From Meghimatium bilineatum (lineage: Eukaryota; Mollusca; Gastropoda; Stylommatophora; Philomycidae): 64,000 nt of DNA. The notes beneath the pieces are model-generated. The model saw nothing but the letters and a program-made list of their open reading frames with translations. It was not told the DNA's origin and ran no database searches. The number at the start of each line of letters is the position of its first letter. Position 1 is the first letter of the stretch. The position numbers and the translations under genes are program-made. Shown piece after piece: positions 5,354 through 57,535 of this stretch. The stretch covers positions 32,800,009 to 32,864,008 of the forward strand of contig CM067316.1 of assembly GCA_034231615.1 (NCBI GenBank), written 5' to 3'.

Positions 5354-6019
5354 TCTCAACCACAGAATGGATGCGTCGTCTTCAGCCCGACTCTACCTCT
5401 AGCAGGTGCTAGCTAAAAACATATCGTATTACTCTCCAAATACATAGTTCAGCTACGAATATGATCTGTGACAAAGTACTTAATATTAGGTGGGCATACT
5501 GACAGCAATTATATAGACATCTGTTGATCATGGTTGTTTTAAGTGTTCGCGTATGGTCGAAGAAAGTTTATTATTTGTGCAATGATGTCTGCGTATCGAT
5601 CTATCGATCCATATCAATAGTGATCAGATAATACACACATTGGAAGTCTTAGATGAAATCGTATTTCTTAAGCATACGGATTGACATGATTTAGAAATAT
5701 TTTTTACCTTAATTGTAAAGCGAATTATTGTCAGCTAAACGCATCTGGTTCAAATCTCAATTCGATCCTTACAATTGTTTATCTCCTTATACGTTTATTA
5801 GTAAATATTTTTGTGTTTGCCAGACTTCTGTATATATGTATTATGGCTTTGGTGTTTATGTGTGTCAACATTTAATTATTTTGTACTCTAATCTATCAAT
5901 TGTGCATTATTATACCTTACTATTATAATTTTGTTCAGTCATTTACATATCTTGAGTTTTATTTCCTCAATTTTGTTTTACATGGTTCTATGTATATATA
6001 CTAACATAAATAAAAATCA
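5354..6019. other. No gene recognised
   Basis: AT-rich DNA. ATCGATCTATCGATCCATAT-type short repeats occur near 5595. No coding signal is supported. Confidence 0.5.
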
Positions 6020-7220
6020 GAAATAAGCCCAGAACAAGGTGGCTTTGTAGAAGGCAAAGGTACCAACAATGCTATTTATATAATGAGAACTCTAATAAAG
6101 AGGTCTATAGAGGTAAAAACAGATCTGTACCTCTGTTTTATAGACTACACTAAAGCATTTGACAAAGTTGAACATAGCGAAATTATACACATGCTAGAGA
6201 ATTTGAACATTGACAGCAAGGATTTAAGAATAATCAAGAACATGTACTGGCAACAAACAGCAGCAATAAGAGTAGGAAATCAATTTGGCCCTTTTCAACA
6301 AATAAAACAAGGAGTCAGACAGAGATGCGCGCTTTCACCAGACCTGTTCTCTTTATACAGTGAAAACATATTGCAAGCAATAGTAGATATCCAAGGAATA
6401 TCAGTGGGAGGACATAACATAAATAATTTGAGATATGCGGATGACACTGTTCTGATTGCAAAAAAAGTTAGGAAGACCTTCAAAATTTGATTAAAGTAGT
6501 AGTCACAGAAAGTAAAGAGAAAGGCCTCTTCCTAAATATCAAGAAAACAGAAGTAATGGTTATTTCAAAGAAACAAAATAACACATCTTGCAAGATCAAA
6601 GTGAATGATATAGTATTAAAACAGGTCCACCAATTCAAATATCTAGGTATAATGATTACAGCAGATGGAAGACGTTCAACAGAAATAAGATGCAGAATAG
6701 GACAGGCAAAAACAACATTCAGAAAAATGAAAAATAGTGTAATAAGACCTTGTCAATAGAGGTGAGAAAGAGAGTTCTGCAGTGCTATATAACACCTATA
6801 CTAACATATGGGTGAGAGTCTTGGACAATAAACAAACTGGAAAGTGGGAGATTGGAGGCAACAGAGATGTGGTTCTACAGAAGAATGCTGAGAATACCAT
6901 GGACTGCCAGAAAAACTAGTGTAGAGGTGTTAAAAGAGTTAAATGCGAAACGGACCTTAATCAACAATATAAGAAAAAGGCAATCTTCTTCTTTTTTTGG
7001 CCACTTCATGAGAAAGACAGGTTTAGAGAACATAATCACAACAGGCAAGATTGAAGGCACCAGAGACAGAGGGCAACAACGTGAGATTATATTAGACAGT
7101 TTGACAATCTGGCACGGCAAGGAAACAACAACGACTTTGATACATAATACTGTGGACAGAGAGCTGTGGAGAGTCATGACCGCCTACGCCACCCGGCATG
7201 GCACATGATGATGATGTATC
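6020..7220 (+). pseudogene. LINE-B reverse transcriptase, C-terminal two thirds, broken
   Basis: The reading frame is already open before the first Met (6083), beginning ISPEQGGFVEGKGTNNAIY at about 6023, so the copy is 5' truncated inside the RT domain. The palm motifs follow: LYLCFIDYTKAFDKVEH (about 6125-6175), QIKQGVRQRCALSPDLFSLY (about 6295-6355) and the catalytic NLRYADDTVLIA (about 6427-6462). A frameshift near 6470 leads to the thumb (NIKKTEVMVISKK, FKYLGIMITADGR). A second frameshift near 6750 and a TGA replacing the Cys of the usual YGCE motif follow. The C-terminal domain ends MWFYRRMLRIPWTARKTS, GHFMRKTGLENIITTGKI and WRVMTAYATRHGT, then an ATGATGATG tail at 7207-7216. The protein would have copied LINE RNA at the nick. 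The breaks make this copy dead. Annotation pipelines often mislabel related proteins as cellular genes. Confidence 0.9.
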
Positions 7221-10920: not shown

Positions 10921-11784
<864 letters not shown>

Positions 11785-12745
11785 AATAAAACATGAGGGA
11801 TAACATAAACAAGAAAGATAATAAAACATGAGGCATAACATAAACAAGAAAGATAATAAAACATGAGGAAGAACACAAACAAGAAAGATAATAAAACAAG
11901 AGGGATAACATAAACAAGACAGATAATAAAACATGAGGGATAACATAAACAAGAGAGATAATAAAACATGAGGGATAACATAAACAAGAGAGATAATAAA
12001 ACATAAGAGATAACATAAACAAGAGAGATAATAAAACATGAGGGATAACATAAACAAGAGAGATAATAAAACATAAGAGATAACATAAACAAGAGAGATA
12101 ATAAAACATGAGGGATAACATAAACAAGAGAGATAATAAAACATAAGAGATAACATAAACAAGAGAGATAATAAAACATGAGGGATAACATAAACAAGAG
12201 AGATAATAAAACATAAGAGATAACATAAACAGGAGAGATAATAAAACATGAGGAAGAACACAAACAAGAAAGATAATAAAACATAAGAGATAACATAAAC
12301 AAGAGAGATAATAAAACATGAGGGATAACATAAACAAGAGAGATAATAAAACATAAGAGATAACATAAACAAGAGAGATAATAAAACATGAGGGATAACA
12401 TAAACAAGAGAGATAATAAAACATAAGAGATAACATAAACAAGAGAGATAATAAAACATGAGGGATAACATAAACAAGAGAGATAATAAAACATAAGAGA
12501 TAACATAAACAGGAGAGATAATAAAACATGAGGAAGAACACAAACAAGAAAGATAATAAAACATGAGGGATAACATAAACAAGAGAGATAATAAAACATA
12601 AGAGATAACATAAACAGGAGAGATAATAAAACATGAGGAAGAACACAAACAAGAAAGATAATAAAACATGAGAGATAACATAAACAAGAAAGATAATAAA
12701 ACAATTGGGATAACACAAACAAGAAAGAAAATAAAACATGAGAAT
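11785..12745. repeat. 35-bp minisatellite, about 27 copies
   Basis: The unit reads AGATAATAAAACATGAG, then GGATAACATAAACAAGA. Two main variants (ACATGAGGGATAAC and ACATAAGAGATAAC) alternate through the middle, giving a 70-bp dimer. A third variant with GGAAGAACACAAAC recurs near 11866, 12250, 12530 and 12635. Because 35 is not a multiple of three and the unit lacks minus-strand stops, all three minus frames stay open for 320-370 codons of Leu/Tyr/Cys-rich sequence. These are not genes. Confidence 0.95.
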
Positions 12746-15480: not shown

Positions 15481-15764
15481 GAATATGCAATAAGTAATAT
15501 ATGCATGCATTATTGCTTGTTTGTAAATGTAAGTCTACAACTATCTGCCATATTTGATTTTAAACCCTCACACCCCCCCCTCCCTTCCAACAGCTGTCAA
15601 ATATTCTTGGCTAATTATGTGGAAAATATGTTGTCCCCCCTCCCCGCTCCCTCCAACAGAGCTTGTGTGAAAGAAAAGTAGGAAAGAATTACATAATTTA
15701 TTTCACATTATTTAAACAATTGAGATTCGTGCATAAATCTCATAAATAGTTACATTTGCTATAT
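15481..15764. other. Unannotated link with two C-rich tracts
   Basis: Similar pyrimidine tracts, CCCCCCCCTCCCTTCCAACAG near 15571 and CCCCCCTCCCCGCTCC near 15635, occur in otherwise AT-rich sequence. Confidence 0.5.
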
Positions 15765-17640
15765 GAAAATAAACACGTGTAAGAATACTTGACATTGTAT
15801 GAAAATAAACACGTGTAAGAATACTTGACATTGTATGAAAATAAACACGTGTAAGAATACTTGACTTTGTATGAAAATAAACACGTGTAAGAATACTTGA
15901 CATTGTATGAAAATAAACACGTGTAAGAATACTTGACTTTGTATGAAAATAAACACGTGTAAGAATACTTGACATTGTATGAAAATAAACGAGTGTAAGA
16001 ATACTTGACATTGTATGAAAATAAACACGTGTAAGAATACTTGACATTGTATGAAAATAAACACGTGTAAGAATACCTGACATTGTATGAAAATAAACAC
16101 GTGTAAGAATACTTGACTTTGTATGAAAATAAACACGTGTAAGAATACCTGACATTGTATGAAAATAAACACGTGTAAGAATACTTGACTTTGTATGAAA
16201 ATAAACACGTGTAAGAATACTTGACATTGTATGAAAATAAACACGTGTAAGAATACTTGACTTTGTATGAAAATAAACACGTATAAGAATACTTGACTTT
16301 GTATGAAAATAAACACGTGTAAGAATACTTGACTTTGTATGAAAATAAACACGTGTAAGAATACTTGACTTTGTATGAAAATAAACACGTATAAGAATAC
16401 TTGACTTTGTATGAAAATAAACACGTGTAAGAATACTTGACTTTGTATGAAAATAAACACGTGTAAGAATACTTGACTTTGTATGAAAATAAACACGTGT
16501 AAGAATACTTGACTTTGTATGAAAATAAACACGTGTAAGAATACTTGACTTTGTATGAAAATAAACACCTGTAAGAATACTTGACTTTGTATGAAAATAA
16601 ACACGTGTAAGAATACTTGACTTTGTATGAAAATAAACACGTGTAAGAATACTTGACTTTGCATGAAAATAAACACGTGTAAGAATTATTGACTTTGTAT
16701 GAATATAAACACGTGTAAGAATACTTGACTTTGTATGAATATAAACACGTGTAAGAATACTTTGTATGAAAATAAACACGTGTAAGAATACTTGACTGTA
16801 TGAAAATAAACACGTGTAAGAATACTTGACTTTGTATGAAAATAAACACGTGTAAGAATACTTGACATTGTATGAAAATAAACACGTGTAAGAATACTTG
16901 ACATTGTATGAAAATAAACACGTCTAAGAATACTTGACATTGTATGAAAATAAACACACGGAAGAATACTTGACATTGTATGAAAATAAACACGTGTAAG
17001 AATACTTGACATTGTATGAAAATAAACACGTGTAAGAATACTTGACATTGTATGAAAATAAACACGTGTAAGAATATTTGACCCTGTATGAAAATAAACA
17101 CACGGAAGAATACTTGACATTGTATGAAAATAAACACGTGTAAGAATACTTGACATTGTATGAAAATAAACACGTGTAAGAATACTTGACTTTGTATGAA
17201 AATAAACACGTGTAAGAATACTTGACATTGTATGAAAATAAACACGTGTAAGAATACTTGACATTGTATGAAAATAAACACGTGTAAGAATACTTGACAT
17301 TGTATGAAAATAAACACGTGTAAGAATACTTGACTTTGTATGAAAATAAATACGTGTAATAATACTTGACATTGTATGAAAATAAACACACGGAAGAATA
17401 CTTGACGCTGTATGAAATTAAGCACATGAAATAATACTTGACATTGCACGACAATAACACATGAAATAATACTTGACATTGCACGACAATAACACATGAA
17501 ATAATACTTGACGTTGCATGACAATAAACACATGGAACAATACTTGACGCGGTATGAAAATAAACACATGAAATTGTACTTGACGTATGAAAGTAAATGC
17601 ATGAAATAATAATTGACGTTGTATGAAAATAAAATACCAG
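15765..17640. repeat. 36-bp minisatellite, about 52 copies
   Basis: The unit is TTGTATGAAAATAAACACG, then TGTAAGAATACTTGACA/T. Copies differ mainly at GACATTG versus GACTTTG, and most carry the palindromic E-box CACGTG within ACACGTGT. Units near 16955, 17095 and 17385 replace it with CACACGG. The last copies (17400-17640) are strongly diverged. Because 36 bp is 12 codons and the unit lacks minus-strand stops, open frames of up to 636 codons cover the block. They encode a 12-residue repeat such as SSILTRVYFHTK and have no support as genes. Confidence 0.97.
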
Positions 17641-18304
17641 AACTAAACAAATAAGATTAATGTATGACATGACAAAACACCACCCCTCCCCACTAATAGA
17701 GAAACTCAATAGTAATATATATATATATATATAGTGTAATCAATGTTCAGATTGCTCATAATTGTTAAAGATTTCAGTGTCTGTTTCTTGAGCCGGTAAG
17801 CTGTGAAAAGTATCGTAGCACTGAAAGCTGATATGTACTATGTAAGAGGCGATTCAGGAGGTTTGGGGGTATAGTTAGCTGTTCCATCCCATTGGCTAAA
17901 ACAACCAAAAATCAAGCTGGTACCGAATGTTTCTGGACAAAGGTGCAGATAACACAACCACGCTGTTAGCCATGACACATCGTCATTTATTCTCTGTGCT
18001 ATATCCTGCTAACAACGGAAGTTTAGGAAGAAACACACAGGAAGATGATGATGAAAAAAGATTTCAGGAAAATATATTTTTATGTGTAATTCAACATTTG
18101 TTTTTATTGGGGAGTCGCTTGTCATGCTTTACTACATCTATTGATATTTCTTCGTGTTAGAAATTATTTTGCTTTTAATATGAGAGTTGTTCGTTTTAGT
18201 GGTACATCCCTTCCTTTTTAGGAGGCATTTCCACATTTTCTGTGATTTGTGGTGACTATTCTTGAGAAAATAGAAAGGTTGAAATCACCCATCCCCACTA
18301 ATAT
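17641..18304. other. No gene recognised; short TA run
   Basis: A TA tract lies at about 17714-17733. The remaining sequence has no supported coding region. Confidence 0.5.
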
Positions 18305-21529: not shown

Positions 21530-21565
21530 GGGGTTAACAACAGGAACCAGGCTCGCGGATAAGAA
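21530..21565 (+). mobile_element. Element N, left piece split by a PLE
   Basis: CAACAGGAACCAGGCTCG, then CGGATAAGAA matches the reverse complement of element N at about 31330-31370. The same element continues at 23025. The last 12 bases, CGCGGATAAGAA, are duplicated beyond the PLE. Confidence 0.75.
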
Positions 21566-23024
21566 GTAGATCCAGGAAAAAGGTAACTTAGTTTTGCTAA
21601 CACTAGATAACACACACAATGACACACACAAGTCAACGTTTCGACCAAAAGGCATTTGTCAAGACAGACAATAAACTTAAAACATATAATAGAAAGCGAA
21701 CAGTAATAATATCGACGGTCACACAGGTATGGGTAGTCTGGATTGACCGGAAGAGGTGAAATGACACCGGACAAGGAAAATACAAAAATGACATCAAACA
21801 TGTCACACGAAACAAACAAAAACTATGGATAGACAAAATTTATCAACAAACATGTGGCACAAAACAAACAGAAACTATGGAAAGACGAAAATCATAAAAG
21901 AGACAGGCGGTCATTAATGCCGTCGGGTTTCAGAGTGCCATATTGAAAAATGTAGCGGTTCTCAAGCGCCAGACGAGCCCGGTCATCAGAGAAGCACGAC
22001 TTAATGGCAGTAACCTGAATGTCCTGGGCGCCCCGATGTCTTACCGGACTAAGCTTGTTCTCACTTTCCACCCCCATAGCGCTGCCGTTCGCCATGTCCT
22101 GCTTCGTCACATTTCCCTTCTCCACTCTGACCCCGAGACGCGGGAAGTGTTCTGTAACCCCCCTCTTGTTGCTTACAGACGTAACAAGAACCTCAGGGAT
22201 CTACTTGTCCGGAGTCACCTCCAGCCTGACGTTCCTAATCATTTTGGCACCATAAGATGTAAACGCAGCAAATGCTACACTTGTGCCTATGTCACCCAGA
22301 TCCGGTCTGTCACATTCACTAAAGCCACCTTCACCATTGAGGAGAACTTCACATGTGTGTCCCGCAACGTCATCTACGCCATCATATGCAAGCGTTGCGC
22401 CATGACATATATAGGTGAAACTGGAAGGAGGCTCGCAGACCGATTCTGCGAACATCTGTACAGCATAAAAAAACCATTCGGGTTTGCCTGTTGACGTCCA
22501 CTTTAATGGCACGGGCCATCGGGGTACCCAGGACATTCAGGTTACTGCCATTAAGTCGTGCTTCTCTGATGACCGGGCTCGTGTGGCGCTACATTTATCA
22601 ATATGGCACTCTGAAACCCGATAGCATTAATGAGCGCCTGTCTCTTTTATGACTTTCGTCTTTCCATAGTTTCTGTTTGTTTTGTGCCACATGTTTGTTG
22701 ATAAATTTAGTCTATCTATAGTTTTTGTTTATTTCGTGTCACATGTTTGATGTCATTTTTGTATTTTCCTTGTCCGGTGTCCTTTCACCTCTTCCGGTCA
22801 ATCCAGACTACCCATACCTATGTGACCGTCGATATTATTACTGTTCGCTTTCTACTATATGTTTTAAGTTTATTGTCTGTCTTGACAAAGGCCTTTTGGT
22901 CGAAACGTTGACTTGTGTGTGTCATTGTGTGTGTTATCTAGTGTTAGCAAAACTAAGTTACCCTTTTCCAGGATCTATCTGTTGGATTTTAGTTTTGCGC
23001 AGTAAGTACAATTTTTCGATTTTT
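21566..23024 (+). mobile_element. Penelope-like element with inverted 3' ends and 12-bp TSD
   Basis: A central plus-strand linker and GIY-YIG coding segment (separate entry) is flanked by two copies of the PLE 3' end in opposite orientation. The left arm is about 21568-22038 (reads on minus) and the right arm about 22515-22975 (reads on plus). Both arms encode the PLE C-terminus. The left arm is intact (HRGAQDIQVTAIKSCFSDD and on to a stop near 21892) and the right arm is shifted in frame. Both then carry the same 3' UTR with a TTTTGGTCGAAACGTTGAC motif. The unit is bounded by CGCGGATAAGAA at 21554-21565 and 23025-23036. Inverted or tandem terminal copies are typical of PLE insertions. RT is absent, so the copy is 5' truncated and dead. 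Confidence 0.88.
22037..22494 (+). pseudogene. PLE linker, zinc motif and GIY-YIG endonuclease
   Basis: The open frame nominally begins at 21943, but its first 30 codons lie in the inverted arm and are unlikely to be native. PLE-like protein starts around YRTKLVLTFHPHSAAVRH. A linker with ETREVFCNPPLVAYRRNKNL follows, then the Cys-rich motif CKRSKCYTCAYV (about 22259-22295). The endonuclease core follows: FTCVSRNVIYAIICKRC, TYIGETGRRLADRF and EH (about 22350-22455). In PLEs this domain nicks the target DNA. The conserved YIG, Arg and downstream Glu/His positions look intact. The frame is lost near 22485, just before VDVHFNG. Without RT the fragment cannot act alone. Equivalent, more damaged segments lie at 35439-35750 plus 32830-33031, and at 50281-50820. 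Confidence 0.88.
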
Positions 23025-23402
23025 CGCGGATAAGAAAAGGTTCAGTACCCGATGGGCACAGGCACAGAACATCTAATACACGAGGCAAATCCATTCACTG
23101 GAATACCTCGTGCGAGATAGACGTGAGTGATAATAGTCTCGGAGAAGAGTCATTACACATCTAAGCACTCCTCCACCGGTAGACAATATGCCACATGTTA
23201 GTGAAGCTCACTACCCGAATAAAGGCATAACGAAAAAGGATGTGCTGGGCCTCGAATGACTGGGCCATAAAGTGAGTCAAACGATGTACAAATAACACAG
23301 TTCAACTGTGGAACAAGCAGTACAGCATACTTCACGCATCCAGGAGGAAATCACACGATTCAATCGTTGTTATTATAAGCGAGCAATCGCAGAAGAAGAA
23401 GA
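23025..23402 (+). mobile_element. Element N, right piece with GAAGAAG tail
   Basis: The sequence continues element N (compare the reverse complement of 31020-31345): TTCAGTACCCGATGGGCAC, ACCTCGTGCGAGATAGACG, ACTACCCGAATAAAGGCAT, AAGGATGTGCTGGGCCT and GGAGGAAATCACACG follow in order. It ends GAGCAATCGCAGAAGAAGAA, whereas the other copies end in AAAC repeats. No protein is encoded here. Confidence 0.78.
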
Positions 23403-23449
23403 AACGTGCATTAGAACATCAGACTAAGCAATATATATTGGAAAGAAAC

Positions 23450-24165: not shown

Positions 24166-25325
24166 TGAACCTGTTGGACTGTTCGGTGTCTGAAAAAAAT
24201 TCAGTCCATTCGAATCATCTTGGGATGTACCAAGGTTACACCATGTGTAGTTATGAGAATTCTTGATTTTCTGACCGAAACTACTAGAATGTATGTCTAG
24301 GTCGGATATACATTGTATACTAAAATCAGTGCAGATACATTTCATTCACTATATATAGGTCTCAATAAGATGAAAGATTTCAAGCTCAAAAGGGACATAT
24401 CATGTTTGAGACAGGCAGATTTTTTTTTCACACTAGTATATGAACCGTCTTGTATTGTTCCTGGGGAAGATTGGATACACACTCCGCCAGCAGTACTTGG
24501 TAACTTTACTGTAGTCTCGACAGAAGTTGCAGGGAAAACAACCCAATGGTGATGGATGCACAAATCAAAGCACTAATTGTCGAAACAAAACATTTAATAA
24601 TCTAGTGACTGGTCAGTCACTTGTCATCAACATTGCGCTTGTGCTTTTTCTGCACAATCTCGTGGGGCATTTGTCAAAGAATCAAGACTTCTTCACAATC
24701 AAGATCATGTTTCTTCTTCTTCAGCGTTCATTCTCAAACTCCCACTGGATTTCTCTTGTAACAGGACAATGATCCTACAAGATTTCCAGTTGAATGTAGT
24801 CCAGAGAATGGAAATGCGTTGTGTTGCCGTTTTATTTGCGCCAATGGCCCAACACATCCGTCTTCGGCGGTAAGATCATGTTTAAAGATGGAGATAAAAT
24901 GTTTTGACGGAAACACTGTCATGTCTAGTGTCACATGCATATTGTCATCTATGCATACTTAGTGATTCAATGAACATACTTCATTAAATTTAAGATAGAG
25001 TCACCCACTGTCAATTGATGAAGTTATTGACCTACTCTCTGTCCAGAAAAATGACCTTTATATACGTGTCCGGAGATGCGAGATTTGAAGAAAATGAACA
25101 AGCTGATACACTGGCAATTACATCCGTAGTGTCGAAAGGTACATCAAAGGACTCATCTTCCACATTCAATACGCCAATACACAATTTCTGTTCAGATTTT
25201 CTAAAGTATGAATCATGGTCACTCTCAACATTAGAGGACATTGGTGTAAACATCGAAATGGCACTTACAAATAAGAGATACATAGTGCATACAAAGAGAC
25301 TGAAAAATCAGTATCGAACTTGAAC
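24166..25325 (+). pseudogene. LINE-A copy interrupted by SINE-1
   Basis: IQSIRIILGCTKVTPCVVM (about 24195-24250) and CIVPGEDW (about 24453) match the post-RT region of the LINE-A copy at 3234-3569. After the SINE, LCILSDSMN (about 24948), MTFIYVSGDARFEENEQADT (about 25050-25110) and the downstream tail correspond to the third and fourth RNase H motifs. In the last motif GH has become GD. Frameshifts and stops occur throughout. The SINE occupies the place where the first half of RNase H should be, and part of that half is also lost. The next array begins directly after it. Confidence 0.8.
24713..24871 (-). mobile_element. SINE-1 truncated copy with 12-bp TSD
   Basis: On the plus strand it begins CTTCTTCTTCAGCGTTC (the GAA tail read in reverse), followed by GTAGTCCAGAGAATGGAAA and CCAACACATCCGTCTTC. 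These follow the order of the copies at 26623 and 42755. AAGATCATGTTT stands at 24701-24712 and 24872-24883. It is 5' truncated relative to those copies. Confidence 0.85.
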
Positions 25326-26545
25326 TGCCAGCAGCTACACTCTGCTAGATTTATTTAGACGGGTATCACTGACAGCTCCTACACTCTGCTAGATTTATTT
25401 AGACGGGGATCACTGTCAGCTCCTACACGCTGCTGATTTATTTAGACGGGTATCACTGACAGCCCCTACACGCTGCTGATTTATTTAGACGGGGATCACT
25501 GTCAGCTCCTACACTCTGCTGATTTATTTAGACGGGGATCACTGTCAGCTCCTACACTCTGCTAGATTTATTTAGACGGGAATCGCTGTCAGCCCCTACA
25601 CTCTGCAATATTTATTTAGACGGGGATCACTGACAGCCCCTACACGCTGCTGATTTATTTAGACGGTGATCACTGTCAGCCCCTACACGCTGCTGATTTA
25701 TTTAGACGGGGATCACTGTCAGCTCCTACACTCTGCTGATTTATTTAGACGGGGATCACTGTCAGCTCCTACACTCTGCTAGATTTATTTAGACGGGAAT
25801 CGCTGTCAGCCCCTACACTCTGCAATATTTATTTAGACGGGGATCACTGACAGCCCCTACACGCTGCTGATTTATTTAGACGGTGATCACTGTCAGCCCC
25901 TACACGCTGCTGATTTATTTAGACGGGGATCACTGTCAGCTCCTACACTCTGCTGATTTATTTAGACGGGGATCACTGTCAGCTCCTACACTCTGCTAGA
26001 TTTATTTAGACGGGAATCGCTGTCAGCCCCTACACTCTGCAATATTTATTTAGACGGGGATCACTGACAGCCCTACACGCTGCTGATTTATTTAGACGGT
26101 GATCACTGTCAGCCCCTACACGCTGCTGATTTATTTAGACGGGGATCACTGTCAGCTCCTACACTCTGCTAGATTTATTTAGACGGGGATCACTGTCAGC
26201 TCCTACACTCTGCTAGATTTATTTAGACGGGGATCACTGTCAGCTCCTACACTCTGCTAGATTTATTTAGACGGGGATCACTGTCAGCACCTACACTCTG
26301 TTAGATTTATTTAGACGGGGATCACTGTCAGCTCCTACACTCTGCTAGATTTATTTAGACGGGGATCACTGTCAGCTCCTACACTCTGCTAGATTTATTT
26401 AGACGGGGATCACTGTCAGCTCCTACACTATGCTAGATTTATTTAGACGGGGATCACTGTCAGCTCCTACACTCTGCTAGATTTATTTAGACGGGGATCA
26501 CTGTCAGCTCCTACACTCTGCAAGATTTATTTAGACGGGGACTGG
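25326..26545. repeat. 43/44-bp minisatellite, about 28 copies, with 217-bp higher-order repeat
   Basis: The unit is CAGCTCCTACACTCTGCTAG, then ATTTATTTAGACGGGGATCA and CTGT. Variants GGTGATC, GGAATCGC, ACGCTGC and TGCAATATT occur in a fixed order. TGCAATATT units start at 25604, 25821 and 26038, exactly 217 bp apart, so a block of five units was amplified three times. The right end (26140-26540) is nearly homogeneous. No stop-free frame of interest covers it. Confidence 0.95.
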
Positions 26546-26622
26546 AGTACCTCGTGATTCATACTGTTTGCGATGATGATAACCAGCACTCATAATTTAA
26601 TGTTTTGTTCAGAAACATGGAT

Positions 26623-26901
26623 TCTTCTTCTTCTGCGTTCGTTCTGAAACTCCTGCAGATTAGCAGGATGTAGTCTGGAAAAAGGAATGGGTTGTGCCAT
26701 GACTTACAGCATTTCTGCGATATCTGCGCATTTCGGCCTGACATATCTGACTTCAGCATTGCTTTGGGTCACTGACCCTATATTGGATGGGACAGCCAAC
26801 TCCATCCCATAACCTCCTTAGTCGCCTTTTAGGACATGCGTGGAAGGTAAACAGTGTTGCTATTCTTTGCTCCCCTTTAGGGTCCTGGCAACACAAGGGC
26901 G
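26623..26901 (-). mobile_element. SINE-1 full-length copy with 12-bp TSD
   Basis: The plus strand starts CTTCTTCTTCTGCGTTCGTT and ends near AACACAAGGGCG. AGAAACATGGAT is present at 26611-26622 and 26902-26913. The copy at 42754-43037 ends at the same internal point, and 59384-59635 appears to as well, so the ~280-bp unit has a defined 5' end. No tRNA-like A and B boxes were found. The head could derive from another RNA or from LINE sequence. Confidence 0.85.
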
Positions 26902-26913
26902 AGAAACATGGAT

Positions 26914-30925: not shown

Positions 30926-31017
30926 CCTTCATGTAATGTAGATGCTACCATTTGCCCGAGATATATGAAGAAACCACACTCTTTTTCATGAAAAGCAGGC
31001 TACAAGCGTAACAGTAG

Positions 31018-32341
31018 TTTGTTTTGCGTTCGCTCCATTGCAATCCACATGGATACCCGTGCGATTTCCGCCGGGAGCGTGTTTACGTTGTGCTACCGTT
31101 ATGCGCCTTGTAGGCCTAGCACATCCGATTTTAGCATTCCTTGACAATTCGGGTGGGCTACCCTAGCCTGTGACAGCCTCCCTATCTGTCGCCAAGCACG
31201 TGTGTGTGTGTGGTGACGCTTCGCCCAGACGAGTTTTTGCTCACTTCTGTCTCGCACGAGGTGTTCCACTGTCAATGAACTTGCCTCGTGTAATTGGACG
31301 TGCTGTGCCTGTGCCCATTGGGTACTAAACCGTTTCTCATCTGTGAGCCTGGTTCCTTAAAAGGAATAACTCAACAGAAGAGTTGGACCCTTGCTCTTTC
31401 GCCCTCTTAGCCGAGGTGCCATTCACCGACATCGTGAACCCCTCGTCCGAGTTCGAGTCTTACACCACGCGATTGAGAGCAAGGCGTTCTCGAGCTGAGC
31501 GACCTTGTCCCAATAGCGTCTGAGCCCATCAGGTACTGAACCCTTTCTCTCTGTAAGTGTATTTCCGGTATACGAGAACCTGACAGTAGAGTTGGGCCAG
31601 GGCTAAAATCGTTGTCTGTTTTGTGCCTGAGGCCATCGGGTACGGAACCCTTTCTCTCTGCAAATGTATTTCCGGTATAGGAAATCTTGACAGTAGGGTT
31701 GGGCCAGGACTGCTATCTTTGTCCCATTTTTTTGTCTGAGCCTATCGGTTTCGGCACCCTTTCTCTTTGCGAGCATTTTTCCGGTATAGGAAGACTCGAT
31801 ACTAGAGTTAGGCCAGGTCTTTTTGCTTTGCTGGACGCCCATTATTGGGTATGGGTCTCTGCCTATAAGGAAATCAAGCAACTAGAAGCTCGTCACGAGC
31901 TAACAGAGCTTGTAGTTCCCATTTCCGTAATCGTTTTCACTTTATATTTGCAGTTGGCGCTGCCCTCTAGCGCTGTTCTGCCCTTTCATGTTTCATAGTA
32001 CTCAGTATGAAATCTATTTGTCTTTCGCAATGCATCCATCTTTTCATGCTTTTTTCATTGACCGCCCCTCCAATGTTCGGACGGGAGTAACTAGCTTCAC
32101 TGTACGTCGACAGTTTCGCTATATGTGGTGTTACTAGTGGTGTCGGAAATATTGTCTGTCTAATCTATTTCCATCTGCTACCTCCACACTCTCGGAAACG
32201 ATCGCCAAATAATTTGGCCAGAATCAGCTCGAGCTGCTGTTTTTCTGTTACCAGTATGCACCGCGAGGAGGTACATTTGCAATCTTGGTTATCTGCTAAT
32301 CCTGGGTCCGCCTAGAGCAATGCGTTTCCTTTTGCACCCCA
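31018..32341 (-). mobile_element. Element N: undescribed ~1.3 kb retroposon, copy 1
   Basis: This block is GC-richer than its surroundings and matches 56315-57535 over its whole length. It also matches 23025-23402 over its end. It is bounded by GTAACAGTAG at 31008-31017 and 32342-32351, a 10-bp TSD. Read on the minus strand it begins GGGGTGCAAAAGGAAACGC and ends GGAGCGAACGCAAAACAAA, an A-rich tail. The middle holds four imperfect ~110-bp subrepeats, each starting CCATCGGGTACTGAACCCTT and ending near GAGTTGGGCCA (starts about 31313, 31518, 31633, 31743). No long open frame or known domain was recognised. It is probably a non-autonomous element moved by a LINE. Its 3' end resembles SINE-1 and LINE-D. 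Confidence 0.8.
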
Positions 32342-32351
32342 GTAACAGTAG

Positions 32352-33031
32352 TGTACACGTAGAACACATGTTTTTTAGTTTCACTTGCCAACTGACAGAC
32401 TATCACAAAAGTGCTATGGAATGTAAACACGAAAAAATACAAATTGCATTACAAGACATTTTTAATGATTCGAACCGTTAGGTCTTTATCAATAACACAC
32501 AAAACAAACAGTGGAAAAAATAATAAAAACAGTAAAAAATAATGTAACCTCCACAGAGACACTAGAACGCAGACATGTAAACAATACGAAGTTCAAGGTG
32601 ACAATGACGTACGTGTAAACATGTAGACATGGAAGCGAGTTTTGTTGAAAAGGGGACAGGATATGAAAACAGAAAGAACAAATTATTATCCAAAACAATA
32701 TGGACATCAATTTAACAAAGTCCACACCAACACAAATGTAAACAAATGAATGTTTATAGTCAAGTCAAAAAGGCTTGACGGTAACAAACTGAAAAATAAA
32801 TATATTTTAATGAGAGTAACTAGATGTCATCCGTGGTGCAGGTCTGGATGGCAGTGACCTGGATATCGAGGGTACCATGATGACCAACACAATTGAAATG
32901 AATGTCGACAGCGGAAGGTACTCTGTGTTTTATAACATGAAGAAGCTTATAGAGTTGGTCACCCAACCGAAGTCCGATTCACGTGTATACCATTTTGTCA
33001 TGGATTTTACATCAGATAACGTAAATTACAT
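32352..33031 (-). pseudogene. PLE 3' part, separated from its upstream half by LINE-D
   Basis: The minus strand near 33031-32930 reads VKSMTKWYTRESDFGWV then TNSISFFML. This aligns with the endonuclease segment KQYISEIGLRLSDRF of the PLE at 50331-50678, with the YIG motif lost. Downstream, HHGTLDIQVTAI-like coding (plus GTCACTGCCATC in reverse near 32850) and a 3' UTR follow. The UTR has the reverse of TTGATAAAGACC..GGTTCGAA at 32453-32482. The upstream linker half lies at 35439-35790. A 2.4 kb LINE sits between them. Confidence 0.75.
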
Positions 33032-33044
33032 ACGGGATTTACAT

Positions 33045-35425
33045 CTTCTTCTTCTCGTTCGGAGTTTGACATGTCTACACAGAAAGTCCTGTTTTCTTAA
33101 TAAATGCTGCTGCATTTGAAAGCTCCTCAGTGCTCCCATACATCTTTCTGTGGATATTCATCTCTGTGGGCCAGTGTTCTTCCCTTATCTGGTTCAGTGT
33201 ATTGCTGTCTTGCAGGATATGTTCAGCTGTCTGTGCTGCCTGCCCACAAAGGCACTGTGGTGATGGGACCAATCTTAGTCTATTTAAGTGGCTGTTTAAT
33301 CTGTTGTGTCCTGTTCTGAGGCGGGAGAAAATAACCTGCTCTGCTCTGTCAAGATAGTGGTAATTGTCTTTTGGGTGGTCGACTTTCCTGTTGGCTTTGA
33401 TGAGGGTCTTCTTTTCTTGGTAGGTGATTTCTTGGTCTTTCTGTTCCTGTGTTGCTCCATCCTTTGCCAGTCTGTCTGCCTCTTGATTTCCTGGTATGCC
33501 ACAGTGGGATGGTATCCACTGTAGTACTACCCTTCTATGGATGCTCACTTCTCGCATGGCTTTCTTCAGGTCTGGCAGTTTATCGCTGTCAAGGGCTTGT
33601 AGGACAGACATAGCATCAGTAAGAAATACCACCTGCTGGCATTGGCTTGTTGTATTTTTAATTATTTCTGCAGCAATGTTTAAAGCCTGTACTTCTGCGG
33701 ACTAGTAGGAGCAGAATATTCCAGTTGGTGAACATGTGGATTTATTTTCTTTTTCTGGATATTTTATGTACATGCCAGCACCTCCATTCTTTACTGCTCT
33801 GGTTGCTGATCCGTCGGTATATACTTGTATCCATGCTTCTCTGGGGTACATATCTTCAATCATGTTGCATACTATTGTTTTCTTTTGAAGATTATTCAGT
33901 TCTATCATAGTGTGGTAGTTGTTTATGGTGGTTCTGATAGTGAGATTTGGGAATTGCTCCTACGAATGTGGAAAAAGTGTTGGTGATATCTCTCTTGTTA
34001 TGTCTGGTAGTTCATTCTTATATTTTCTGTTTAGTTTTTTGGATCGGTGTATAAAACTGCTCCTCTTCCACTGGCTAGGTCACTGTGTCTGTTCCTCATT
34101 GGATGTGCTGGTGTCTCGCCTTTATGGTAAGGGAGTGATGCCTGTAATTTTTTCCATTTCATTTATGGGAGAGGTCTTCATGGCACCTATGATAAGGCGA
34201 AGTGCTTGATTTTGTACCTTGTTCATGGCTTGTAGATGGGAGTTGGCTGCTGAGGTCCATGCTGTTGATCCATATTCTAGTTCTGGTCTAATTACACCAG
34301 TATATACCTTCTTCAAAGTTGCCTCATTGGCTCCCCAGTTTGTTCCTGCCAATTTCCTCAGGGTGGCAAGTTTCTTTCTTGCCTTTGCTTCTATTTTCTC
34401 AATGTGAGGCCTCCATGTCAGTCTTTTTTCTAGCGTAGTGCCCAAGTACACTGGCTCGTCTTCTGTTTGGATATGTACATTTCCGAGTTTTATCTCTCCT
34501 GTTTTGTCCTTATTTCAGAGTGTGAAGAGTGTTGTTGAAGACTTTTCAGCATTTATCTTTACCATCCATTTATCTGCCCATGCTGCTATGTTGTCTGCTG
34601 CCTTTTGTATTTTTTTGTTGGCGATCTTTAGATGTTCTTCTACACACCACACCACCAAGTCATCAGCGTACATTGCAGCTCTTACACCTTGTGGCAATTC
34701 ACAAATTATATCATTTATGAAGACAAGAAACAGAGTTGGAGACAATACTGAGCCTTGAGGAACTCCATGTTTTAGGAGAACTTTTTTGCTGTTGTATCCT
34801 TCCATGGTGACTCTTGCTTTCCTATTGTGTAGGAAGGAACGGACCCACTTGCTCATGTTGCCACCTATTCCGTTTCTTTGCAGCTTTATTATCAGTCCAT
34901 CTTTCCAGACCTAGTCGAAAGCTTTTTGAAGATCTATCCATAGGATGAAAACTTTTTTCTTTTCTTGAAATGTGTCTTCTATGATCTGGGACAGGAATGT
35001 TATTTGGTCTTCTGTGCTGTTACACTCTCTAAATCCAGCTTGTTCTGGCACCAATAGCTTCCCCGATTCTAGGTACCACTTTAGTCTTCTGTTAACCATC
35101 TTTTCCATTGTCTTGCAGACACTACTCGTTAGACTTATTGGTCTATATCTGTCGGTCTTCTGTTTGTCCTTGCCTATTTTAATAATAGGACACATAAACG
35201 CTTCTCTTCACGACTGTGATACATTGCCTGTAACCCAACTATAGTTGTATATCTGTAATAATTTGTACATTGCTGCCAGTCCTAGGTTCCTAAGCATTTC
35301 ATTGGTGACAAGATCCGGTCCTGGTCATTTTCTATCCTTTAGTTTCCCTATAGATGCCTTTAATTCTTCTATTGTGAATAATTTGGACATGACGTCTGGG
35401 CAGTTTGTGTTGTTCTTATCATGTA
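33045..35425 (-). pseudogene. LINE-D: RT plus RNase H, nearly complete C-terminal two thirds
   Basis: Read from 35425 downward: fingers (YRPISLTSSVCKTMEK, about 35150), palm FILWIDLQKAFD with a stop directly after (about 34910), HGVPQGSVLSPTLFLVF (about 34770), catalytic MYADDLVVW (about 34675), and a stop after TTLFTL (34515). The thumb follows (YLGTTLEKRLTWRPHIE, VIRPELEYGSTAW), with a stop after ITPLP (34122). RNase H then has VYTDGSATRAVKNGG (about 33820), AEVQALNIAAE preceded by a stop, VFLTDAMSVLQALD (about 33630) and WIPSHCGIPGNQEADRL (about 33520). A C-terminal CLCGQAAQTAEHIL lies at about 33230. The end reads ACTCCGAACGAGAAGAAGAAG. ACGGGATTTACAT (33032-33044) and ATGGGATTTGCAT (35426-35438) are diverged TSDs. 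The four stops make it a pseudogene with both active sites preserved. Confidence 0.93.
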
Positions 35426-39404: not shown

Positions 39405-39842
39405 TTTCATCATCATCATCAAGAGCCGTCTCCGCAACGAAGGTTGGCTGCAACTTATCTCCAACATCTCATGTGTCTTGTCTTGGTGGTGCACTCTGCT
39501 ATACTGTAACCTGTCCATCGTATGATGTTACTCTCCCACTTGTATCTCTGCCAACCTCTTGCTCGCTTCCCTTTGACTTTACCCTCAAGTAAGGTCTTCA
39601 ATAAGGTGTCATGTCTTTTAATGTGTCCAAAGTATTTTTTTTGCCTGATTTGTATTTCTCTTAGTAGTCCTTTTTTCATATTAAGTGTCATTAGCACCTC
39701 TTTATTTGTTTTCTTCTCTTTCCATGATGTTCTCCCTATTCTTCTATATACCCACATCTCAAAGGCATCAATTGTGTCTTCTAATTGTTTATTTAGTGTC
39801 CATGTTTCAGAGCCATACATTAGTATGGAATAGATGTAGCAT
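39405..39842 (-). pseudogene. LINE-C C-terminal fragment
   Basis: The minus frame of 121 codons reads MYGSETWTLNKQLEDTIDAF, MWVYRRIGRTSWKEKKTN, YFGHIKRHDTLLKTLLEGK and RGWQRYKWESNIIRW. After a frame break near 39455 it ends in CATCATCATCATC (tail in reverse). It is highly similar to 62776-63200. The 5' end is cut just before the YGSE motif, so RT is absent. Confidence 0.88.
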
Positions 39843-39959
39843 TTTCCGTTAAACTGGATTGAATCTCTAATAGCTGGACTGGGAATCTAATGCATTAAGC
39901 ACTGGGAAATGTCATGGGTGATAAAATTTGATATTCAAGTGAAATATAGATGACACGTC

Positions 39960-41170
39960 CTGACACGGAGGTCGTTGTAGAACAATTCGGTTTTAGGATA
40001 AACAAAGAAACCAGGGAAGCTATAAGCTATACTGAGTATCCGACTAGTGATAGATAAATATATAGAAGTGCAAAAAAGTTTCTATATTTGCTTCATTGAC
40101 TACAGCAAGGCCTTTGACAGAGTCCAACATAAAATAAATTAATCAAATGTCTTCAAAAAATAGGAATAGATGGAAAAGACATCAGACTGATTAGAAATAT
40201 ATATTGGGAACAAACTTCATCAATAAGGTGTGAAAACAGCTACTCAACATACATATAAATACGAAGAGGGATAAAACAAGGTTGCATTTTATCACCAAGC
40301 TTATTTAATATCTACACAGAGAATATCTTTAAAAAATATAGAAGAAATGGCAGGACTCAAGATCAATGGGAAAATAATAAACAACCTTAGATATACAGAT
40401 GACACTGTTCTTGTGGCGGAAAGTGAACATAAACTATAAAGACTAATAGATCGTCATAAAATCAAGTAATGAATGTGGACTGGATATATATATCCACTAA
40501 AAAACCATGATAATCAGCAAAAACACAGAAAAACAATAGCTAAACATAAACATACATGGAGAGAAACTACAAGTAAAACATTATCAATATCTTGGGCACA
40601 TAGTGACAAATGATGGCAGATGTGAAACATAAGTTGAAAGGAGAATAGGAATGGCTAAAAGTACATTCAATGACATGAGGAAAATATTAGCATCTAAACA
40701 AATTACAAATAAGTTAAAAATGACAATTATAAAATAATATATCTAATCTATATTAATGTATGGCTCAGAAACATGAACACTAAGTAAACAATTAGAATAC
40801 AGAATTGATGCCTTTGAGATCTGGGTATATAGGAGAATATGGAGAACATCATGGAAAGAGAACAAATAAAGAGGTGCTAAAACACGTAATGTGAAGAAAG
40901 AACTACTAAGCAAATAAAGATCAGGTAAATAAAATATTTTGGACACATTAAAAGCCATGACACCTTATTGAAGTCCTTACTTGAGGGTAATGTCACAGGG
41001 AAGCGAGCAAGAGGTAGGCAGACATACAAGTGGGAGGGTAACATCACACGATGGACATGTTACATTCTAGCAGAATGCACCACCAAGACAAGAAACAGGG
41101 GATGTTGGAGATCCGTTGCAGCCAACATTCGTTGCGGAGACGGCACTCGATGATGATGTAATAATACGTA
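39960..41170 (+). pseudogene. LINE-C RT and C-terminus, many frameshifts
   Basis: Pieces in LINE-C order are VVVEQFGFRINKETREAI (about 39985), CFIDYSKAFDRVQH-like sequence (about 40092-40130), IRRGIKQGCILSPSLFNIYT (about 40262-40320), NLRYTDDTVLVAESEH (about 40384-40430, YADD changed to YTDD), YLGHIVTNDGRC (about 40590-40622), LMYGSET (about 40755) and KSLLEGNVTGKRARGRQ (about 40970-41020). The tail is CGATGATGATG at 41149-41160. It lies opposite to the LINE-C copy at 39405-39842, about 120 bp away. The frame breaks at least ten times. Confidence 0.85.
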
Positions 41171-42753: not shown

Positions 42754-43037
42754 GTCTTCTTCTTCTTCTGCGTTAGTTCTCAAACTCCTGCAGATTAGCA
42801 GAATGTAGTCCGGAGAACCGAATACGTTGTGTCATGGTTTACAGCATTGCTGCGATATTTGCGCCTTTCGTCCTGACACATCCGACTTCAGCATGGCTTT
42901 GGGTCACTGACCCTATAATGGGATGGGACAGCCAACTCCATCCCATAACCTCCTTAGTCGCTTTTTACGACATGCGTGGAAGGTAAACAGTGTTGCTATT
43001 CTTTGCTCCCCTCTCGGGACCCGGCAACACACGGGCG
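42754..43037 (-). mobile_element. SINE-1 full-length copy inside the 37-bp array
   Basis: The plus strand runs CTTCTTCTTCTTCTGCGTTA, GCAGATTAGCAGAATGTAGT, CTGACACATCCGACTTCAGC, GACAGCCAACTCCATCCCAT, GCGTGGAAGGTAAACAGTGT and CCGGCAACACACGGGCGAG. It is closely similar to 26623-26901. TAGAAGAG occurs just before (42746-42753) and just after (43044-43051), consistent with a TSD in a repetitive target. Confidence 0.85.
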
Positions 43038-43335
43038 AGAAACTAGAAGAGATGATATGTGATATGACATACAACTAGACTACAAGATGTGTTATGTGAC
43101 AGAACATAGACATAGACTAGAAGAGGTGTTATGTGACATGATATAGAATAGACGAAGAGGTGTTAAGTGACTTGATATAGAACTAGACTAGAAGAGATGT
43201 TATGTGACAAGACATAGAGCTAGAATAGAAGAGATGTTATGTGACATGACATTCAACTAGACTAGAAGAGATATTATGTGTCAGGATATAGAGCTACAAT
43301 AGAAGAGATATTACAAGACATGTACGACCTAATAC
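43038..43335. repeat. 37-bp ACTAGAAGAG minisatellite, middle part
   Basis: About eight units. The GAAGAGGTGTTATGTGACA core is spaced 37 bp apart at 43156 and 43193. A further decayed block lies at 45525-45905. Confidence 0.85.
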
Positions 43336-51180: not shown

Positions 51181-53000
51181 TAGGTGGTAGAGCATATACT
51201 GTGACATGTACAACATTATTGGTAGAGCATATACTGTGACATGTACAACATTATTGGTAGAGCATATACTGTGACATGTACAACAGTATTGGTAGAGCAT
51301 ATACTGTGACATGTACAACATACATGGTAGAGCATATACTGTGACATGTACAACATGCATGGTAGAGCATATACTGTGACATGTACAACATTATTGGTAG
51401 AGCATATACTGTGACATGTACAACATAAGTGGTAGATCATATACTGTGACATGTACAACATTATTGGTAGAGCATATATTGTGACATGTACAACATAAAT
51501 GGTAGAGCATATATTGTGACATGTACAACATAAGTGGTAGAGCATATACTGTGACATGTACAACATTATTGGTAGAGCATATACTGTGACATGTACAACA
51601 TGCATGGTAGAGCATATACTGTGACATGTACAACATTATTGGTAGAGCATATATTGTGACATGTACAACATAAATGGTAGAGCATATATTGTGACATGTA
51701 CAACATAAGTGGTAGAGCATATACTGTGACATGTACAACATTATTGGTAGAGCATATACTGTGACATGTACAACATTATTGGTAGAGCATATACTGTGAC
51801 ATGTACAACAGTATTGGTAGAGCATATACTGTGACATGTACAACATGCATGGTAGAGCATATACTGTGACATGTACAACAGTATTGGTAGAGCATATACT
51901 GTGACATGTACAACATGCATGGTAGAGCATATACTGTGACATGTACAACATGCATGGTAGAGCATATACTGTGACATGTACAACATTATTGGTAGAGCAT
52001 ATACTGTGACATGTACAACATAAGTGGTAGAGCATATACTGTGACATGTACAACATAAGTGGTAGAGCATATACTGTGACATGTACAACATTATTGGTAG
52101 AGCATATACTGTGACATGTACAACATTATTGGTAGAGCATATACTGTGACATGTACAACATTATTGGTAGAGCATATACTGTGACATGTACAACATGCAT
52201 GGTAGAGCATATACTGTGACATGTACAACATAAGTGGTAGATCATATACTGTGACATGTACAACATAAGTGGTAGATCATATACTGTGACATGTACAACA
52301 TAAGTGGTAGATCATATACTGTGACATGTACAACATTATTGGTAGAGCATATACTGTGACATGTACAACATGCATGGTAGAGCATATACTGTGACATGTA
52401 CAACATAAGTGGTAGATCATATACTGTGACATGTACAACATAAGTGGTAGATCGTATACTGTGACATGTACAACATTATTGGTAGAGCATATACTGTGAC
52501 ATGTACAACATTATTGGTAGAGCATATACTGTGACATGTACAACAGTATTGGTAGAGCATATACTGTGACATGTACAACATGCATGGTAGAGCATATACT
52601 GTGACATGTACAACAGTATTGGTAGAGCATATACTGTGACATGTACAACATGCATGGTAGAGCATATACTGTGACATGTACAACATGCATGGTAGAGCAT
52701 ATACTGTGACATGTACAACATTATTGGTAGAGCATATACTGTGACATGTACAACATAAGTGGTAGAGCATATACTGTGACATGTACAACATAAGTGGTAG
52801 AGCATATACTGTGACATGTACAACATTATTGGTAGAGCATATACTGTGACATGTACAACATTATTGGTAGAGCATATACTGTGACATGTACAACATTATT
52901 GGTAGAGCATATACTGTGACATGTACAACATAAGTGGTAGAGCATATACTGTGACATGTACAACATAAGTGGTAGAGCATATACTGTGACATGTACAACA
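51181..53000. repeat. 35-bp minisatellite, about 52 copies, with 735-bp higher-order duplication
   Basis: The unit is GGTAGAGCATATACTGTGAC, then ATGTACAACATTATT. The last five bases vary (TTATT, TAAGT, TGCAT, GTATT, TAAAT) and act as a barcode. The barcode series at 51741-52091 recurs at 52476-52826, an offset of 735 bp or 21 units. All three minus frames stay open for up to 221 codons of Cys/Tyr/Met-rich sequence because the unit has no minus-strand stop. These are not genes. Confidence 0.97.
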
Positions 53001-53454
53001 TAAAAGTTAAAACACACACTACGAATTGTGCACGCAGCGCATACCTGTTACTGGGAGTCTCATAGTTTACATTCTACATCTGACAAACTGTAATTTTGTT
53101 TTCATTCAATGAAACAATGGTTTCTATGTTAACGGCACTTAAATTTAATTACAAACGTTAACAGAGTAAGTCGTGGTCGGGTCAAGTGTTGGTGAAAATA
53201 GCTCCCTATTAATTGTATTAGTTATATTGTGGCCAAGTGATGAATGGTTTCATATTTGGAGTAATGACGTGCTCACAAATGTGACTTAATTGGTGAAAAT
53301 ATATCAAGTGACATGGAACTCTGAGCAACGCTCTTTGATTGTTCTGTTAGTTGACTTCTCAAACACTTGTATCACTTGAAGCGAGGTGAACACTTAACAT
53401 GAAACCAGATTCCTGTTTTCTCAACTTTCTCTTTGCACAATTTCTTGTCTGTGT
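53001..53454. other. No gene recognised
   Basis: Unique-looking link between two arrays. Confidence 0.5.
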
Positions 53455-56314: not shown

Positions 56315-57535
56315 TTTGTTTGTTTGTTTTTTGTTCGCTCCATTGTAACCATCACGGATATCCGTGCGATTTCCGCCGGGAGCGTGATTACGTTGTGCCA
56401 CCGTTATGCGCCGTGTAGGCCTAGCACATCCGATTTCGTCATGCCTTGACAATTCGGGTGGGCTACCCTTAGCCCGTGACAGCCTCTATTTCTGTCTCCA
56501 GGCACGCGTAGTGGAGACTCTTCGCCCAGACGATTTTTTGCTCTCGAACGAGATGTTCCACTGTCTATGAACTTGCCTCGTATAATGCCTCGACGTGCTG
56601 TGCCTGTGCCCATTGGGTACTGAATCGTTTCTCATCCGTGAGCCTGGTTCCTTAAGGGGAAGAACTCAACAGAGGAGTTGGACCCTGGCTTTCGCCCTCT
56701 TAGCCGAGGTGTCATTCACCGACATCGTGTACCCCTTGTCCAAGTTCGAGTCTCACACCACGCGTTTGGGAGCAAGGCGTTCTCGAGCTGAGCGTCCTTG
56801 TCCCAATAGCGCCTGAGCCCATCAGGTACTGAACCCTTTCTCTCTTCAAGTGTATTTCCGGTATAGGAAAACCTGACAGTAGAGCTGGGCCAGGGCTAAA
56901 TCGTTGTCCCTTTTGTGCCTGAGCGCATCGAGTACGGGACCCTTTCTCTTCGCGAGCATATTTCCAGTTTAGGAAGGCTCGACATTAGAGTTGGATTAGG
57001 TCTTCTTGCTTTACCAAACGCGAATAAATGGGTCTGGGTCTCTGCCTGTAAGGAACACATGTAACTAGAAGCTCGTCTCGAGCTGACGGAGCTTGTAGTT
57101 CCCCTTTCCTAGGAACTTTTCATTTTCTATTTGCAGTTCGCGCTGACCTCTAGCGCTGTTCTGCCCTTTCATTGTTTCATTGTACTCGGTATGAAATATA
57201 TTTGTCTCTCGCCATGCATCTACCTTTACGTGCATTTTACATTGGCCGCCCCTCCAATGTTCGGACTGGACTGACTAGCTTCACTGTATGTCGACAGTGT
57301 CGCTATATGTGGTGCTGCTGGTGGTGTCGGAGATATTGTCTGTCTCTTGTGCAGTCAAATCTCATTCCATCTACTACCTCCACATCCTTGGACACGATCC
57401 CCAAATGATTTGGCCAGAATCAGCTCGAGCTGCTGTATTTCTCTTTCCAGGGTGCACCGCGTGGAGGTACATTTGGGATCTTGGTTATCTGCTAACCCTG
57501 GGTCCGCCTAGAACAATGCAGTCCCTTTGCACCCC
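56315..57535 (-). mobile_element. Element N, copy 2, with AAAC-repeat tail
   Basis: It matches 31018-32341 from TTCGCTCCATTG (about 56334) to TTTGCACCCCA (57525-57535). Read on the minus strand, the tail is GGAGCGAACAAAAAACAAAC, then AAACAAAC, ending in a LINE 3'-like simple repeat. It carries three of the ~110-bp subrepeats (starts about 56609, 56819, 56925), one fewer than copy 1. No clean TSD was found. TGTATTA occurs at 56304 and again about 15 bp past the right end. No domain was recognised in any frame. Confidence 0.78.

Follow-up and report, generated by a model that had tools for sequence, protein, structure and literature searches.

Non-autonomous retroposons headed by a self-cleaving ribozyme are already known from fly rDNA (PMC3414825) and from trypanosomatids (PMC4035085), as the available parts of these papers describe. 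In Drosophila, R2 SIDEs and their R2/R1 hybrids lack autonomy, and an HDV-like ribozyme sets their 5' ends; the machinery of an autonomous element recognises their 3' ends, and the hybrids show that the head and the tail can derive from different LINEs. These SIDEs reside in 28S rRNA genes, where they are transcribed together with the rRNA and released from it by cleavage (PMC3414825, available sections). The SIDER, NARTc, and RIME elements of trypanosomatids are likewise described as short and non-autonomous with an HDV-like ribozyme head, and are related to LINEs encoding RNase H (PMC4035085, in the portion available); their Pr77 head has also been described as a transcription activator. Ribozymes of the same fold occur in the LINEs R2, R4/Dong, L1, and RTE, where they cut at the 5' junction of the element, and one from abalone is mentioned (PMC3774820, excerpted text). 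Metazoan retrozymes, found in a mollusc among other animals, are non-autonomous non-LTR retroelements with a self-cleaving ribozyme, but this is a hammerhead, and they form tandem units of ~300 bp with linear and circular RNAs of ~170–400 nt (PMC7229834, available sections).

Here, we describe a non-coding retroposon of the gastropod Meghimatium bilineatum, designated element N, that occurs in a stretch of 64,000 nucleotides (hereafter, the window). Element N is probably a ribozyme-led, LINE-mobilised, non-autonomous retroposon of the SIDE/SIDER type, whose 5' end lies at a predicted HDV-like cleavage site. Its mode of action may parallel that of R2 SIDEs and trypanosomatid SIDERs (PMC3414825 and PMC4035085, as far as their available text goes). 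With the R2 and hybrid SIDEs it would share non-autonomy, a 5' ribozyme that fixes the 5' end, and the proposed recognition of its 3' end by the machinery of an autonomous element. Unlike these SIDEs, it is dispersed in the window, is 1.2–1.3 kb long, contains internal 107-bp repeats, and has a SINE-like 3' part, whereas SIDER, NARTc, and RIME differ in having protist hosts. Ribozyme-bearing LINEs are autonomous and encode a reverse transcriptase, and none was found in element N. The J1/2 joining stretch varies in length among HDV-like ribozymes, from about 250 nt in silkmoth R2 (PMC3774820, excerpted text) to 48 nt in copy 2 of element N. In the open-access literature covered, no HDV-like-ribozyme-headed, non-autonomous mollusc element was found.

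Copies of element N and their ends

On the minus strand, the two full-length copies match from one end to the other, with 88.0% identity over 1,196 gap-free columns, and differ by 77 transitions and 66 transversions (Table 1). They share the 5' start GGGGTGC, beginning at one and the same base, and have AACAAA-type tails at both 3' ends. In each, a T precedes element nt 1; in copy 1, this T (32341) lies between the target duplication and nt 1. Their lengths of 1,323 nt (copy 1) and 1,221 nt (copy 2) bear out the view of the initial annotation that the element is larger than a usual SINE, SINEs being usually under ~0.6 kb. The annotation had proposed three dispersed copies, and all are real, but copy 3 is more diverged than the others, and only 24 nt of its left piece could be aligned. 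Copy 3 is also the 5'-truncated member of the family, in line with the variable truncation that had been suggested as a check.

Copy 3 is split by an insertion (21567–23013) flanked by a 13-bp duplication, TCGCGGATAAGAA. This insertion has 391-nt inverted arms that are 96% complementary and a frame at 21898–22494 with a sub-threshold match to GIY-YIG (E = 0.0018), and presumably represents a Penelope-like element.

The target duplication at copy 1 is exact, as had been claimed, but measures 11 bp rather than 10 bp, its 3'-side repeat sharing base 31018 with the last base of the element tail. This length falls within the 8–15 bp that the annotation proposed to look for, but no exact duplication was found at the other copies: the longest common word in the flanks of copy 2 was 7 nt, and the flanks of copy 3 had no duplication of 7 nt or more. 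The 3' tails vary by copy (AAAACAAA in copy 1, (AAAC)n in copy 2, and (GAA)n in copy 3), which agrees with the A-rich, AAAC-repeated, and GAA-type ends first noted. Two further features had been read correctly from the sequence. The GC content is elevated, at 0.49 and 0.50 in the full-length copies against 0.28–0.50 for the window in 1-kb steps, the top step being one that contains copy 1, and internal repeats are present as ~107-bp units, of which copy 1 has 2.8 and copy 2 has two, one fewer than the three of copy 1. Tandem repeats were also recorded across the window: TRF returned 57 rows in the 64 kb, and many long minisatellite arrays occur (e.g., 11780–12742, 15762–17633, 25324–26541, and 51185–53001), several with units of 35–55 bp.

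The ends of element N bear no inverted repeats of at least 10 nt; all pairs of this size lie inside it. The common 5' start, the 11-bp duplication, the A-rich or GAA tails, the 5'-truncated copy 3, and this absence of terminal inverted repeats support the origin of the element N family by retroposition, and hence the earlier suggestion that the copies were made through RNA. Among the features expected of mobilisation by a LINE (TPRT), the tails and the truncated copy were observed, together with an exact 11-bp duplication at copy 1 only.

Table 1. Positions in the window of element N, its predicted ribozyme, and the SINE and LINE sequences discussed
Feature	Position	Strand	Remarks
Element N copy 1, full length	31018..32340	-	5' end 32340; 3' tail AAAACAAA ending at 31018
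Target duplication, 5' side of copy 1	32342..32352	.	GTAACAGTAGT on +
Target duplication, 3' side of copy 1	31008..31018	.	GTAACAGTAGT on +
Internal ~107-bp tandem repeat, copy 1	31518..31817	-	2.8 units
SINE-like block near 3' end of copy 1	31081..31142	-	72% over 64 columns; E = 0.001 against the window
Element N copy 2, full length	56315..57535	-	5' end 57535; (AAAC)n tail ending at 56315
Element N copy 3, left piece	21536..21565	+	24 nt aligned to copy 1, 21 identical; E = 3e-4
Element N copy 3, right piece	23025..23404	+	5'-truncated; (GAA)n tail
Predicted HDV-like ribozyme, copy 1 5' end	32200..32340	-	one G/A mismatch in P1; P2 fully paired
Predicted HDV-like ribozyme, copy 2 5' end	57396..57535	-	motif scan, anchored test, hand-drawn pairs
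Copy 2 P1, 5' strand	57535-57529	-	
Copy 2 P2	57480-57470 with 57407-57396	-	
Copy 2 P3	57468-57466 with 57458-57456	-	
Copy 2 P1, 3' strand	57455-57449	-	
Copy 2 P4	57435-57415	-	
Copy 2 J4/2	57414-57408	-	
SINE S42	42757..43043	-	terminal motif GAACTAACGCA(GAA)n; 8-bp flanking repeat
SINE S26	26622..26907	-	90% identical to S42; terminal motif GAACGAACGCA(GAA)n
SINE S17	17779..18051	+	66% identity to S42; GAT-rich tail; 11-bp target duplication AAAGATTTCAG
SINE S24	24711..24868	-	5'-truncated; 12-bp target duplication AAACATGATCTT; (GAA)n tail
Degraded LINE, RT and RNase H pieces	33045..34910	-	3' end CCGAACGA(GAA)n; front missing
LINE pieces with (GAT)n-type ends at the stop codon	62776-63576, 39455-39886, 40365-41158, 6014-7208		RT by Pfam in the two scanned

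A predicted HDV-like ribozyme at the 5' end

The statement of the initial annotation that no domain is visible holds for proteins: the longest stop-to-stop frame within the copies has 105 codons, and four of the longer frames matched no Pfam family at E ≤ 0.01, on which grounds a coding element was rejected. It overlooked, however, a predicted HDV-like ribozyme at the 5' end. Over their initial ~140 nt, the two full-length copies fit the HDV-like fold, and in both, nt 1 of the element coincides with the 5' base of P1, i.e., with the predicted cleavage site. In copy 2, the P1 strand GGGGTGC pairs with GCACCCT through six Watson–Crick pairs and one G–U pair, and the 3' strand of P1 directly follows that of P3, as the fold demands. 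All 11 pairs of P2 are formed in both copies, and none is broken by the changes between them, one of which is two-sided (C–G to G–C) and two of which are one-sided changes to wobbles. Both copies also have P3 (ACC/GGT), a two-pair P1.1, and a seven-pair P4. The resulting nested double pseudoknot of P1, P2, P3, and P1.1 with P4 comprises 30 hand-drawn pairs, with 59 of the 60 cells paired over the two copies.

L3 reads TCCACGC in one copy and TCCTCGC in the other, and J4/2 is GCCAAAT in both, with two neighbouring C's that are equally eligible as the active base. These letters conform to a rule derived from two Rfam consensus lines (L3 YCYNCGN; J4/2 C then NRA). Of the two ribozymes, that of copy 2 is more likely to be active; that of copy 1, with its mismatch in P1, may be inactive.

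The 3' part of element N, a SINE family, and candidate helper LINEs

Element N does not stand alone: a SINE family that also occurs in the window has a similar 3' part. The block listed for copy 1 has a counterpart in copy 2 (E = 0.02) and sits in the 3' half of the SINE. The family is ~290 bp long and comprises S42 and S26, with weaker matches in S17, S59, S24, and S46. Flanking repeats of 8–12 bp were found at four of the five copies tested (S17, S24, S26, and S42; S59 had none, and S46 was left out), and the S26 repeat may in part be sequence of the SINE itself. The terminal motif GAACGAACGCA(GAA)n occurs four times in the window when up to three mismatches are allowed, against zero expected from 100 shuffles, and one of the four is copy 3 of element N. 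S42 contains the exact core CATGTCGTAA..GCGACTAA, and the ~290-bp family has a similar core, which we take to be one known from mollusc repeats and possibly the MetaSINE core.

The tail motif of element N is also like one LINE end in the window, that of the degraded LINE at 33045–34910. This LINE is the best candidate helper in view and is favoured for its CCGAACGA(GAA)n terminus, a single LINE end whose likeness to element N amounts to about six common bases plus the GAA tail. Among the protein matches listed for its RNase H piece (at least 120 of 174), the 18 with organism names were all gastropod, at 38–56% identity; they included Littorina, Gigantopelta, Bradybaena, and Elysia, and the closest listed matches were not among the named ones. 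The LINE pieces with (GAT)n-type ends are presumably RTE-like. For an RTE-like LINE piece of the window, five of the six named matches listed were from Elysia and one was from a moth. Both sets of matches point to a gastropod-like mollusc as the probable host. The LINEs with (GAT)n-type ends are ranked lower as helpers because element N and three SINE copies have GAA or AAAC tails; they could nevertheless have served, given the GAT-rich tail of SINE S17.

A narrower version of the LINE-mobilised reading is a strict SIDE model, under which element N would have arisen from one autonomous LINE by internal deletion, its ribozyme and 5' UTR coming from the front and its tail from the back, so that its body would be merely old LINE UTR. 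R2 SIDEs and NARTc/RIME stand in this relationship to their LINEs (PMC3414825 and PMC4035085, available text), and HDV-like ribozymes head several LINE clades (PMC3774820, in the part available). However, blastn at E ≤ 5 gave no match of element N in the LINE at 33045–34910, a copy that itself lacks the front, and the 3' part of element N resembles a SINE family with a different body. Descent from a single LINE is a serious possibility, but a somewhat doubtful one.

Motif scans and Rfam comparisons

Another alternative is that element N is a 5'-truncated LINE 3' UTR, or a retrocopy of a host non-coding transcript, and that its likeness to a ribozyme is a matter of chance. The Rfam results leave room for this. 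No family scored above its gathering threshold in the whole window, and the 1,451 bases scanned for copy 1 yielded no HDV-like family at E ≤ 5. The drz-agam-1 model (RF01787) matched copy 2 at 57490–57400 on the minus strand with 22.5 bits (E = 0.095 in 1,351 nt; gathering score, 37), but at the scale of the whole window this becomes E = 4.5, so that Rfam alone is not decisive. The HDV-F-prausnitzii model (RF02682) matched copy 1 with 14.1 bits (E = 1.9 in the 191 nt at the 5' end; gathering score, 44). Because both scores lie below gathering, we term the ribozyme predicted rather than a curated member. The two matches cover nearly the same stretch of the element on the same strand. The drz-agam-1 alignment agrees with the proposed P2/P3 core but sets the 5' strand of P1 beside P2 rather than at the element start, which lies 48 nt upstream, and the HDV-F-prausnitzii model matches the outer helix, with mismatches, to bases other than those of the proposed P1; neither alignment draws on the initial bases of the element. 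Weak matches to nos_TCE (E = 4.5) and HOTAIRM1_3 (E = 2.5) in copy 1, and to TP53TG1_1 (E = 9.3) and sR28 (E = 8.5) at its 5' end, were taken as chance.

Scanned for the motif on both strands under strict limits, the window yielded two matches, with the 5' strand of P1 at base 1 of the two full-length copies, compared with 79 matches in 200 shuffled windows (0.4 per window). With relaxed limits, it yielded three, compared with 658 in 200 shuffled windows (3.3 per window), which is no excess; the excess is therefore confined to the strict limits and to position, and is to be read with the scan thresholds having been set after the copies were seen and the L3 rule taken from Rfam consensus lines. 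In the anchored test, only 2 of 127,680 positions on both strands passed, and these were the two element starts. When the P1/P2 limits or the L3 rule were loosened, 2 to 192 positions passed, always including both starts; without the L3 letters, at least 1,229 did, which means that these letters carry much of the weight of the test. Shuffles of the 5' end with the first seven bases fixed passed once in 20,000 for copy 2 and in none of 20,000 for copy 1. When the 3' partners were slid, pairing fell from 98% to at most 43%, whereas the two-sequence shuffle control of pairing (254/500) is uninformative with two sequences. Minimum free energy folding was mildly better than that of shuffles (z = -1.05 and -2.24) and lengthened P3 using bases that P1 needs, i.e., it formed a competing longer P3. 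Copies 1 and 2 represent one family and are not independent witnesses.

The window shows no more than two copies of full length, which, like the sub-gathering Rfam scores and the displacement of P1 in the Rfam alignments, would be compatible with a chance likeness. Nevertheless, the two copies share their first base, they were the sole passers in the anchored test, and P2 has been kept by a compensatory change, all of which makes this explanation unlikely. For relatives elsewhere, four exact-pattern scans of viral contigs returned no matches, and two of prokaryote contigs returned zero and one; that one, in a contig titled as an Armatimonadetes MAG, spans 21 bases and was taken as chance.

Promoter boxes and other element classes

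Considering its resemblance to the ~290-bp family at the 3' part, element N might be an oversized SINE driven by pol III. At exact consensus, however, the sense strand of copies 1 and 2 has no pair of A and B boxes, with one A-box match in copy 1; the one pair in each copy is antisense; ARAGORN detected no tRNA in the 64-kb window; and the copies are 1.2–1.3 kb long. This origin is accordingly very unlikely, and a tRNA-headed SINE was rejected for the same lack of a sense-strand box pair and of a tRNA. The antisense pairs, with the A box and B box 43 bp apart (31408–31459 and 56701–56752 on the plus strand), are intact in both copies, and the window contains only three such pairs in total. A hammerhead retrozyme was likewise rejected, no Rfam family having exceeded gathering in the window. 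It is scarcely credible that element N is a DNA transposon (e.g., a Mutator-like element) or a solo LTR: Mutator-like elements make duplications of 9–11 bp, with which the 11 bp at copy 1 would agree, but this length exceeds the 4–6 bp of LTR elements, and TIR DNA transposons and solo LTRs were rejected because the ends lack inverted repeats, the tails are variable and A-rich or GAA-type, and one copy is 5'-truncated.

Proposed mobilisation of element N and its implications

If element N is, as we consider probable, a ribozyme-led retroposon mobilised by a LINE, its cycle would comprise four steps. Because no pol III A and B box pair was found on the sense strand at exact consensus, the element would be transcribed inside a longer host transcript. 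The 5' ribozyme would then fold and, as its structure predicts, cleave the RNA at the element's first G, which would give a precise 5' end wherever the element had landed. A LINE reverse transcriptase would presumably recognise the 3' end and start target-primed reverse transcription; the traces that such a step would leave are all seen: the tails are A-rich or of the GAA type, copies can be truncated at the 5' end, and a short target duplication is present, in exact form at copy 1 only. Finally, each new copy would carry its own cutter and would need no promoter of its own.

We further propose, tentatively and with slightly less than even confidence, that element N represents a class of animal retroposons, promoter-free and ribozyme-headed "SINEs", in which a self-cleaving HDV-like ribozyme replaces the pol III head, the LINE-recognised tail is kept, and the elements live outside the rDNA. 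Such an arrangement would explain the constant 5' end of a non-coding element of 1.2–1.3 kb. If this is true, a retroposon of this kind could hitch-hike in any host transcript and would regain an exact 5' end after each insertion. As a dispersed mollusc element whose tail is similar to that of an ordinary SINE family, element N would show that self-cleavage can take the place of a promoter in a retroposon that lives off host transcripts.
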